Shown here one piece after another: positions 5,165 to 12,798 of a stretch of 64,000 bases of DNA. Positions within the stretch are counted from its first letter, which is position 1, and every line of letters starts with the position of its first letter. Source of the stretch: Methanomassiliicoccales archaeon (GTDB taxonomy: Archaea > Thermoplasmatota > Thermoplasmata > Methanomassiliicoccales > UBA472); contig JAPKYK010000006.1 in NCBI GenBank assembly GCA_026394395.1, forward strand, positions 62,001 through 126,000, read 5' to 3'. The notes under the pieces are model-generated. The model saw nothing but the letters and a program-made list of their open reading frames with translations. It searched no databases and was not told the DNA's origin. The translations under genes were made by a program, and so were the position numbers.

Positions 5165-8100
5165 TTATTCGCCCGCATCGTCCTCCTCCCTGGACGGCTC
5201 CTCGGGCTCTTCTCCGGGAGCGCTTAACGAGGAGTCGCCGTGGACCTCGGCCTCCTCCACCGCCTGTTCCTCCTTGCGGCCGGCGAGCCGGGCGACGGCT
5301 ATTACCTTGTCCCCTTCTCGCAGGTTCATGACCGTGACGCCCTGCGTGGCCCGTCCCATGACCCTGATGTCGGCCACCCGGATGCGTTGCACCATGCCGT
5401 TGACCGAGGCTAGTATCAGCTCGTCGTCCTCCTCTACCTCGAGGACGGACACGACGTCGCCGTTGCGCCCCTCGGTGCGGATGGTTATCACGCCTTTGCT
5501 GCCGCGGTGGGTCTTGCGGTAGGTATCGCGCTCGTCGTCCGCGTCCTTCTTGCCGACCACGGATATCTTGCCGTAGCCGTTCTCGGTGACGGTGAGCAGC
5601 CGGGATTCGGAGGTCACGATGGTCATGCTGACCACCTCGTCGTCCGGCTCCGGTCTTATGCCGATGACCCCGTGCGCCGGTCGCCCCATGGGCCTGACCT
5701 GGTCCTGAGCGAAGCGGCAGGCCAGGCCCTTCCTGGTGGCCAGTATGACCTCCTCGTTCTCCTCGACGATCTTCACGTCCACCAGCTGGTCGCCCTCCTC
5801 CAGGCCCACGGCTATTAGTCCCCGCGAGCGGACGTTGGCGTACGCTTCGAGAGCGGTCTTCTTGATGATGCCCAGGCGGGTGGCGAACAGGAGGTACTGC
5901 TCCCCCCGTAGGCCGGTGACGGTGCGGGTGGCCATGACCTTCTCGCCATCCGCCAGCTTGGGAAGTAGGTTGACTATGGGCTTTCCTTTGGACTGGCGGC
6001 TGCCCACGGGCACCTGCCAGGCCTTGAGAGTGTACATCTTCCCCAGGTTGGTGAAGAACAGCACCTGGTCGTGGGTCATGCTGACGAAGAGGTCGGTGAC
6101 GATGTCCTCCTCCTTGGTCTCCATGCCCATGAGCCCGATGCCCCCGCGGTGCTGCTGCTTGTAGGTGTCCAGCGGCATGCGCTTGATGTAGCCGTCCTGG
6201 GTGATCATGAGCACCATCTCCTCGTTGGGTATGAGGTCCTCGATGTCCATGTCCAGGGCATGAGCGACTATTTCCGTGCGCCTTTCGTCGCCGTACTTCT
6301 TCTTCATCTCCAGCGTCTCCGCCTTGATGATTCCGAGTATGCGAGGCTCGTTCGCCAGGATGTCCTCCAGGTCGCGTATGAGCTTCTCTATCTCCAGGAA
6401 CTCGGCCTGTATGGACTCCAGCTCCAGACCGGTCAGCTTCTGCAGCCTCATGTCCAGTATGGCTTTCGCCTGCTCCTCGTCCAGCTCGAACCGGGCTATC
6501 AGCCCGGTGCGGGCCTCCTCGGGAGAGTTGGCGGAGCGGATGATGTGCAGCGTTTCGTCCAGGGCGCTGATGGCCTTGACCAGCCCCTGCAGTATGTGGT
6601 CGCGCTTCTTCGCTTGCGTCAGGTCGAACTGGGTCCGGCGTACGACGACCTCGTGGCGGTGCTGGATGAAGGTCTGCATCTCCTCCTTCAGGGTGAGCAC
6701 CCTGGGCTGGTTGTTCACCAGCGCCAGGTTGATGACGCCGAAGGTGATCTCCATCTGCGTGTGGGAGAACAGTTGGTTGAGTATCACCTCTTCCATCACG
6801 TCCTTGCGCAGGTCGATGACTATGCGCATCCCATCGCGGTCCGACTCATCCCTGAGGTCGGTTATTCCGTCGATCTTCTTGTCCTTGACCAGCTCGGCGA
6901 TGTTCTCGATCAGGGTCGCCTTGTTGACCTGGTAGGGTATCTCGTCCACGATGATGCGCTTGCGGTGCTCCAGGTCCTCGAAGTGCGTCTTTGCCCGCAC
7001 CTTGAGCTTACCTCGTCCCGTCTGGTACGCCTCCAGGATACCGCTGAGACCATAGATGGTGCCGCCCGTCGGGAAGTCCGGGCCCTTGATGAACTGCATG
7101 AGGTCCAAGATTTCGGCCTGAGGGTTGTCCACCAGGTAAACGAGCGCGTCCGCGACCTCGGATAGATTGTGCGGGGGCATGTTGGTGGCCATGCCTACTG
7201 CTATGCCGGAGGAGCCGTTCACGATCAGGTTGGGCAGCTTGGACGGGAGGACCAGCGGTTCCTTCAGCGAGGCATCGAAGTTGTCACCCCATTCCACCGT
7301 CTCCTTGTCCAGGTCGGCCAACATGTCCTCGGCCCTCTCCTCCATGCGGCACTCGGTGTACCTCATGGCCGCGGCCTGGTCGCCGTCCACGGAACCGAAG
7401 TTACCTTGGCCGTCGATCAATGTGTATCGTAAAGAGAAGTCCTGTGCCAGGCGCACCATCGAATCGTAGACGGCCGTGTCGCCGTGCGGATGATATTTAC
7501 CTAGGCAATTGTGCACTATGACCCCGTTCGCCATGAACTCGTGCGCACCGGCGACCTGCAGGTCGTAGGTCTTCTGGGCGGGAGCCTCTGCGACCTTGGT
7601 TACTTGGACGAAGTACAGGTGGTCGTCCACCACATCTTCGATGAAGGGGCAGAGCTTGGATTGTATCCTCACAAGCTTTTCCTGGAGCCCCCAGTCCTTC
7701 AGCTGCGTGCGGCCGAGGGGGCGTTCCTTCAGGTCGGAGGAGTAACGAATCTTCGTCCCGTTCGGATAGCAGATTCCAGACCTGAACTTCCCACCGTTGA
7801 TATCTTCATACCAACCTCCACCCAGATGATGGTCGGACAGCTCCTGGAACACTGCTTGCCCCAGGAACGGTATGCGGTCGTTGGGAGCAGCGTCCACGTT
7901 CGCGTGCAAGATGCGTTCCAACCTGGACCTCTTGGACTCGCTCCCAAGGTCCAGCATGCCTGCGAGGGCCTTGGCGAAACGCCCCCTCGCCTCTATCGCA
8001 TAGAACTGATGACGAGAGATGATTATGCTGTCATTGATCGTGCGATACTCATCGCTCACTTTCTGGATATAGCGACTGGATAGGATGCCGAGATGCTGCA

Positions 8101-9163
8101 GTACCAGCTGCAGGTCGTCGGCCATCTGGGAAGATACGGTCCCGTAATGCACGGAGTTCCGTTCGTTGTGGACGGACCCGTCTCCGTCGACCATGCCGGA
8201 CATCAACGCTGCGATTACTGATTTGGGGGAGCGGAAGAAGGCTTCGGGGATGCGTTTGGTCGGGGCCTTCCAAGACGGATCAATGCCTAAGGCGGAAGCA
8301 AGGTAATTGTTCAGTTCTCGCCTGTTCACACGTACCTGATAGGTTATCTCCACGGTTTGGTTGCCATCCGAGTGGAAGAAGTCCTTACTGTTCATCTCCA
8401 CGTTGGCTTCGTATCCAAAGGCGCGGCTGAGGCATCTACTTACCTTTTGCATGACCTCTTCGCTAGCCGAGAAGAAGCATATGCGGAAGTTGTCCGCCTC
8501 GAACCAACCGTCAGAGAGGAATTGCCCGATGAGATAGGCGATGTCCTCGTCCAAGAACATCTCCTTGCCTTGCCATTCCGGTAGCTTGACCTTGGGAAGC
8601 TCGGGATACTCCAAGCGCATCACGAGATGGTCGCCCTCCATCAGGTCCTTGGCCTCCTTCCATTCGTATCGGAGGTCCTGGGTCAGGACCTTGAACGGCT
8701 GTGATGGGGTGCAGGTGAACCCCAATCCGTTCTCGATGTTCACGCGAAGCAGCTGCCTTTCAGGCATTTCGTACAGTTCGGTCACGTGCGACATGCCGTT
8801 CTGCGTGTAGACCTTCTCTCCGCGCTGCACTTGCTCGATGGGAATGAGCCCTCTTTCCGTTAGCACCCGGGTGCCAGCCACGAAGCATTCACCCACTACC
8901 CTGGCGCTCTTCTTGTGCGCCTTGTTGTGGTTGAGCGATAGGTCGTACATGGAGTAAAGGATGCGACGGTGGACAGGCTTTAGCCCATCCCTGGCGTCCG
9001 GAAGCGCCCTGGATACAATTACGCTCATGGCGTAGTCGATGTAGGACTTCTTCATCTCCCTCTCGAGGGGCTGGAGCACGATCTTGTTCGTACCGGCGTC
9101 TGGGACCTTGACATCCCCCGCGTTCTGTACCGGGGCCTGCTGATTGGTATCTTCGTCGGTCAT
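5165..9163 (-). CDS. gyrA: DNA gyrase subunit A with intein
   Basis: GyrA cuts and rejoins DNA in the A2B2 gyrase that introduces negative supercoils. The precursor has 1332 residues because a 460-residue intein follows residue 92; the mature protein would be ~872 residues, a normal GyrA length. Visible signatures: [19 protein letters not shown], the [12 protein letters not shown] helix (Thr at the E. coli Ser83 position), catalytic Tyr in [10 protein letters not shown], and a C-terminal beta-propeller with a GyrA-box-like QQHRGGIG. The tail is acidic. An ATG at 9163 is chosen over a further upstream extension because GAGGTGAGA precedes it and it sits 10 bases after the gyrB stop. It is the second gene of a gyrB-gyrA operon. 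Bacterial-type gyrase in archaea is generally attributed to an old transfer from bacteria. Confidence 0.97.
7508..8887 (-). mobile_element. GyrA intein with LAGLIDADG homing endonuclease
   Basis: A 460-residue intein begins with Cys1 ([13 protein letters not shown]), ends with His-Asn (ANGVIVHN) and is followed by Cys+1 ([10 protein letters not shown]). It splits the [16 protein letters not shown] stretch upstream of the catalytic tyrosine. Two dodecapeptide motifs, LIGQFLSDG (119-127) and [10 protein letters not shown] (228-237), show an intact-looking DOD endonuclease, so it may still home. Block F ([11 protein letters not shown]) is normal. Block B reads CTPSQPF, with Gln63 where the usual histidine stands. 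The frame is uninterrupted. Confidence 0.95.
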
Positions 9164-9173
9164 TATTCTCACC

Positions 9174-11176
<2,003 letters not shown>

Positions 11177-12602: not shown

Positions 12603-12699
12603 TGGAGCCACTGGAGGGTATTGAACCCCCGGCCTGCGGTTTACGAAACCGCCGCTCTTTAGTGGCCCCGGGAAGGGGCTACCACTGAGCTACAGTGGC
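12603..12699 (-). tRNA. tRNA-Thr(CGT) with insert in the D-loop
   Basis: Read on the minus strand from 12699: acceptor GCCACTG pairs perfectly with CAGTGGC. It continues TA, D-stem GCTC/GAGC, G26, anticodon stem GCGGT/ACCGC with loop TTCGTAA (anticodon CGT, Thr ACG codons), variable loop AGGCC, T-arm GGGGG-TTCAATA-CCCTC, discriminator T and an encoded CCA. The gene is ~22 bases too long because of an insert after the D-loop AGTGGTA. A TATA-like AATTTTAAATGG lies ~25-30 bases upstream. The gene is convergent with thiC. Confidence 0.93.
12658..12679 (-). other. putative noncanonical intron of tRNA-Thr (BHB motif)
   Basis: The insert folds with the D-arm as a bulge-helix-bulge: exon GTGG pairs with intron CCAC, a 3-base bulge TAG carries the 5' site, CCCC-TTCCC-GGGG is the intron hairpin, and a 3-base bulge (TAA or AAA) carries the 3' site next to D-stem GAGC. 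This is the substrate shape of archaeal tRNA-splicing endonuclease. The exact length is 20-22 bases, depending on which A is the junction. Removal restores a normal D-arm. Confidence 0.85.
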
Positions 12700-12798
12700 C
12701 TTGGGCAGCATCAACCGCTACGCCCATTTAAAATTTGCTGCCTTCGCCCATTCAGACAATTATATTATCTGGCATCGCACTCTGTCATTGGGGATCGA

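Follow-up and report, generated by a model that had tools for sequence, protein, structure and literature searches.

A predicted bulge-helix-bulge intron in the D-loop of tRNA-Thr(CGU) in Methanomassiliicoccales and other Thermoplasmata

Results

The tRNA-Thr(CGU) gene and its insert

The window (the whole 64,000-nt stretch of DNA that was analyzed) belongs to a Methanomassiliicoccales genome of 1.64 Mb (6 contigs, 99.85% complete) and carries a tRNA-Thr(CGU) gene for a 94-nt pre-tRNA at 12606-12699. The Rfam tRNA model (RF00005) matched the minus strand from 12699 to 12606 with 58.5 bits (E 4.6e-10), setting aside 23 bases of the D-loop, and the Rfam search of the window returned no further hit. 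The preliminary description of this DNA had thus rightly recognized a tRNA-Thr(CGT) gene; we add the correction that it lies on the minus strand, where it reads GCCACTG TA GCTC AGTG GT|A GCCCC TTCCC GGGGC CACT AA|A GAGC G GCGGT TTCGTAA ACCGC AGGCC GGGGG TTCAATA CCCTC CAGTGGC T, then CCA (bars mark the predicted splice sites). Compared with intronless orthologues (e.g., L052), the 5' exon (nt 1-19; 12681-12699) runs from the 5' strand of the acceptor stem to U20 of the D-loop, and the 3' exon (12606-12658) from A21 to the discriminator U73. Between them lies a 22-nt insert, AGCCCCTTCCCGGGGCCACTAA (12659-12680), at U20/A21, away from 37/38 and hence at a noncanonical position. The anticodon CGU occupies 12643-12645, and the encoded CCA end (12603-12605) is kept in the orthologue alignment. 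A TATA-box-like element, AAATTTTAAATG (12726-12737, minus strand), precedes the tRNA by about 35 nt, and the congeners listed show this motif at an equal distance.

Plain ARAGORN called no tRNA anywhere in the window. Given the predicted spliced 72-mer, however, it returned tRNA-Thr(cgt), while the unspliced form was miscalled as tRNA-Pro; removal of the 22 nt leaves a 7-nt D-loop (AGUGGUA), as in the intronless orthologues, and restores G18 G19. The genome also contains Thr(UGU) and Thr(GGU) genes, both without an insert. The preliminary description had named an intact second Thr(CGT) gene as a possible argument against an intron, and a search of the genome's tRNAs turned up no further Thr(CGU) gene. 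Elsewhere in the window, gyrA (5165-9268, minus strand) carries an intein at approximately 7508-8887 that includes a LAGLIDADG domain (Pfam Intein_splicing, LAGLIDADG_3).

Bulge-helix-bulge structure and covariation

The borders between exons and insert form a bulge-helix-bulge (BHB): a 4-bp central helix, in which the exon strand AGUG (12683-12686) pairs with the intron strand CACU (12661-12664), is flanked by two 3-nt bulges, GU|A (12680-12682) with the predicted 5' splice site and AA|A (12658-12660) with the predicted 3' splice site, and the insert itself folds into the hairpin GCCCC-UUCCC-GGGGC (12665-12679; all on the minus strand). The two 3-base bulges of the preliminary description were thus present; its insert, given as about 21 and as 22 bases, has 22 nt, and its hairpin CCCC-TTCCC-GGGG is real and has 5 bp (GCCCC/GGGGC).

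Among 50 distinct orthologous D-arms this layout was constant, with an intron of 16-31 nt and three bases in each bulge in 50/50. Pairs 2-4 of the central helix were standard in every sequence, pair 1 being A-U in 41 and A-G in 9, and both-side change from C-G to U-A occurred in this helix among the orthologues. The first three hairpin pairs were likewise standard in 50/50 despite changes of identity: G-C in 34 and A-U in 16; C-G in 28, U-A in 20 and two wobble pairs; C-G in 27, G-C in 13 and others. When 15 Thr and 7 Ala sequences (the latter described below) were aligned, both-side changes occurred at all 5 hairpin pairs; standard pairs filled 99.5% of pair cells compared with 79.4% in shuffles, and both-side changes numbered 115 compared with 30.5 (outside the intron hairpin, much of this is difference between Thr and Ala). 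None of the slid controls rose above 55%. From the same alignment RNAalifold, unaided, recovered the hBHBh' shape. As a measure of chance, 108 of 500,000 random 22-mers combined a central helix of 4 bp with a hairpin of 5 bp in the exact register. The minimum-energy fold of the Thr D-arm taken singly adopts a different register, one that is not conserved; folding of one sequence cannot decide between registers, and our case therefore rests on comparison between sequences.

These comparisons also bear on whether the insert might simply be an expanded D-loop retained in the mature tRNA. A retained loop has no need of conserved bulge sizes or of a conserved helix between exon and intron, nor would one expect it to range so widely in length or to be absent from relatives without any other change; further, the spliced product regains a 7-nt D-loop with G18 G19. 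We consider retention highly improbable. No features of self-splicing or of a C/D guide were seen in the 22 nt, and a C/D guide RNA was rejected since the hairpin lacks C/D boxes.

Register of the splice sites

The preliminary description had drawn the central helix as GTGG/CCAC, one base off from the helix given here (12686-12683 with 12664-12661). In that register the intron would still be of BHB type, with cuts at UA|G and UA|A, and would leave a 9-nt D-loop, AGUGGUAAA. GUGG/CCAC pairs well in Thr(CGU), is a better fit for those orthologues (9 of 50) whose first pair is A-G, and reaches pair counts similar to those of AGUG/CACU on the 22 sequences. The base 5' of CACU, however, changes in concert with intron nt 2 (G-C in 34, A-U in 16), while opposite G19, its partner in the alternative, it could form only G-C or G-U; the products of GUGG/CCAC would exceed the intronless Thr and Ala orthologues by two bases; and RNAalifold picks AGUG/CACU. 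We therefore regard the GUGG/CCAC register as very unlikely. The covariation with intron nt 2, the 7-nt product loop, and the Ala and Leu products that match intronless relatives favor AGUG/CACU, with predicted splice sites at GU|A and AA|A.

Conservation and distribution

The gene with its insert was present in 10/10 genomes of the genus and in further families of the order (DNA search of 40 relatives), the orthologous insert occurring in families f1 and f3-f6 of Methanomassiliicoccales. Across the class, 49 of 400 genomes carry it: 28 in f1 and f3-f6 of the host's order, 18 in f8, two in f24 and one in f32. A pattern scan with one genome per species found 47 contigs with the intron-bearing gene, all Methanomassiliicoccales, Methanomassiliicoccus, Thermoplasmata or Euryarchaeota by name, and one further contig labelled Methanomicrobia archaeon DTU008. 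The remaining family of the order, f2 (which we take to be the Methanomethylophilaceae), has only the intronless form GCTCAGCGGTAGAGC, in 45 genomes by our count; because the order's other five families and other Thermoplasmata families have the insert, intron loss in f2 is the simplest reading. The comparison of orthologous tRNAs thus shows an insert shared by dozens of relatives and cleanly absent from others, and the intron is conserved and probably old.

That the gene is dead, or the insert an error of assembly, might be suggested by its invisibility to standard ARAGORN. The exons, however, are intact and near-identical between species, the insert recurs in dozens of independent assemblies, the TATA-like element is conserved upstream, and no other Thr(CGU) gene turned up in the genome; given this conservation both readings were rejected, and we assign them negligible probability. 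Separately, the Thr(CGU) gene of a distant Thermoplasmata family (L152, G169:C34:13324-13364, minus strand) has a 13-nt insert at the unchanged site with hardly any hairpin, perhaps a minimal or decaying intron.

Other tRNA introns in the genome

The intron is not the singular oddity that the preliminary description suggested, since the genome holds at least three more in D-loops. tRNA-Ala(CGC) (L067/L070; G000:C3:10840-10933, plus strand) has a strict D-loop BHB intron, with the D-arm GATC AGCG GA|T GCGTC AATAC GACGT CGCT AA|A GATC. This intron is patchy even inside one genus: congeners G002 and G008 have an intronless gene, GATCAGCGGAAGATC, which is exactly the predicted spliced product. tRNA-Leu(CAA) (L147/L231; G000:C3, minus strand, approximately 321208-321314) has a 22-nt D-loop intron (D-arm GGTC AA|T GGCGC CAGAA GCGCC GACC AA|A GGC); intronless relatives read GGTCAAAGGCGACAGA, the predicted product across the junction, and the intron occurs in the host genus and in families f3, f5 and f6 but is missing from other f1 genera. 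tRNA-Lys(UUU) (L229; G000:C1:41772-41905, plus strand) contains a 30-nt insert in the D-loop and another of 30 nt in the T-loop (~59/60), with none at 37/38; without both inserts ARAGORN calls it Lys(ttt), and its D-arm becomes that of Lys(CUU). It thus seems to carry two introns, as judged from a single genome. The outer helix is relaxed in both Leu and Lys by additional unpaired bases on the 5' side of the central helix.

Nine more tRNAs (eMet, Val GAC, Phe, Arg UCU, Ser CGA, Ser GGA, Glu UUC, Trp and Tyr) have introns at 37/38. The one in tRNA-Trp(CCA) (L148, G000:C1:347850-348150) is long and bears C- and D-box-like motifs; a Trp intron with such motifs is also found in other Euryarchaeota. 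ARAGORN missed or miscalled the genes with D-loop introns, and the Rfam tRNA model was weak or blind on Leu and Lys. The Cys, Pro(UGG), Pro(GGG), Leu(UAG) and Arg(GCG) tRNAs were not located in the genome with the Rfam model, the T-loop pattern or model R1; our guess is that these five may carry T-loop introns, to which the T-loop pattern is blind, or lie in gaps. One candidate, L230, was rejected as a tRNA. Loci L149, L150, L187 and L188 consist of 3' tRNA ends alone (tRNA-Leu, tRNA-Met/Ile-like and others), which look like attachment-site remnants of integrated elements.

The splicing endonuclease

The genome encodes a single tRNA-splicing endonuclease (EndA) ORF, with two PF01974 domains (TIGR00324, 165.7 bits; cut-off 59.6), whose closest solved relatives include the alpha'2 enzyme of A. 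fulgidus and the EndA of M. kandleri. Relatives with a match likewise have one two-domain ORF per genome, the intronless f2 included (the fragmented genome G040 gave one hit only). An alignment of 26 EndAs showed conservation of the catalytic Tyr, His and Lys and no insertion after the FYG motif (0/26). Among the PDB matches, the A. fulgidus chain of 3p1y has extra residues at this point, which we take to be the engineered CSL insertion that has been described (PMC6379350). We looked for the arrangements associated with broad specificity, i.e., (alpha beta)2, epsilon2 or a CSL/ASL loop, and found neither a separate beta subunit nor a loop. As judged from its sequence, the host EndA is a fused alpha'2 enzyme that lacks the loops associated with broad specificity; with one two-domain ORF and no FYG insertion, it thus belongs to a class that has been described as strict in its demand for a BHB.

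Discussion

We consider it very probable that the insert is a BHB tRNA intron of the splicing-endonuclease type at 20/21, to be excised by the alpha'2 EndA and ligated to give a 72-nt tRNA-Thr(CGU), because the hairpin shows compensatory changes, exact intronless counterparts exist, and the arrangement is conserved in dozens of genomes. In the proposed pathway the gene would be transcribed with the intron. A strict bulge-helix-bulge would then form from the D-stem, the intron and A14, G15, U16 and G18, four bases of the D-loop. The one EndA of the genome, a fused dimer, would cut within both bulges (GU|A and AA|A), after which a ligase would link U20 to A21, the expected product being a normal 72-nt tRNA-Thr(CGU) with the D-loop AGUGGUA.

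Position 20/21 is a listed noncanonical site of archaeal tRNA introns (PMC4090602), and the kind of intron is therefore known; what is unexpected is its setting, i.e., the clade and the enzyme. Reviews allow Euryarchaeota whose enzyme is alpha4 or alpha2 a single BHB intron, in the canonical place only (PMC4090602), a rule that is broken by a conserved D-loop intron in Methanomassiliicoccales and their relatives, much as the preliminary description had sensed in calling such an intron unexpected in a Thermoplasmata-like euryarchaeon. We found no paper on tRNA introns in Methanomassiliicoccales in the literature searched; the introns may already be listed in a resource such as GtRNAdb.

On balance, we lean toward the broader view that Thermoplasmata possess a stable set of D-loop introns (plus at least one in a T-loop) that predates several family splits and is processed by an alpha'2 EndA without a broad-specificity loop. 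If so, the ability to form a BHB, rather than the class of enzyme, would set where an intron can lie, the association between enzyme type and noncanonical introns would need revision, and a nominally strict enzyme would be cutting the Leu and Lys introns despite their relaxed outer helix. These tRNAs offer a clean system in which to test what the alpha'2 enzyme needs in position and motif, and, as the Ala(CGC) intron is patchy inside one genus, intron gain and loss can be studied as well.

Several known systems offer points of comparison. The canonical 37/38 introns of archaea have in common with the Thr(CGU) intron the strict hBHBh' motif and presumably the one enzyme; the latter, however, lies in the D-loop and not beside the anticodon. 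Korarchaeum (alpha2), Methanopyrus and Methanothermobacter have noncanonical introns that are likewise exceptions outside Crenarchaeota. Korarchaeum has been called the sole alpha2 archaeon with noncanonical introns, and its EndA is reported to have a specific loop (PMC4033280), while the M. kandleri enzyme is an (alpha beta)2 (PMC6379350); the host enzyme differs from both in these features. The tRNA introns of red algae and nucleomorphs also lie in the D-arm or D-loop (PMC4090602, PMC3978253), but they belong to an unrelated lineage with a eukaryotic enzyme. The introns described here resemble the noncanonical BHB introns at 20/21 that are best known from Crenarchaeota, Nanoarchaeota and Thaumarchaeota in position class, BHB motif and shortness. 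They differ from these in their Thermoplasmatota host, in the alpha'2 EndA, in the strict 3-4-3 motif (Thr, Ala) and in the retention of the Thr intron across families.
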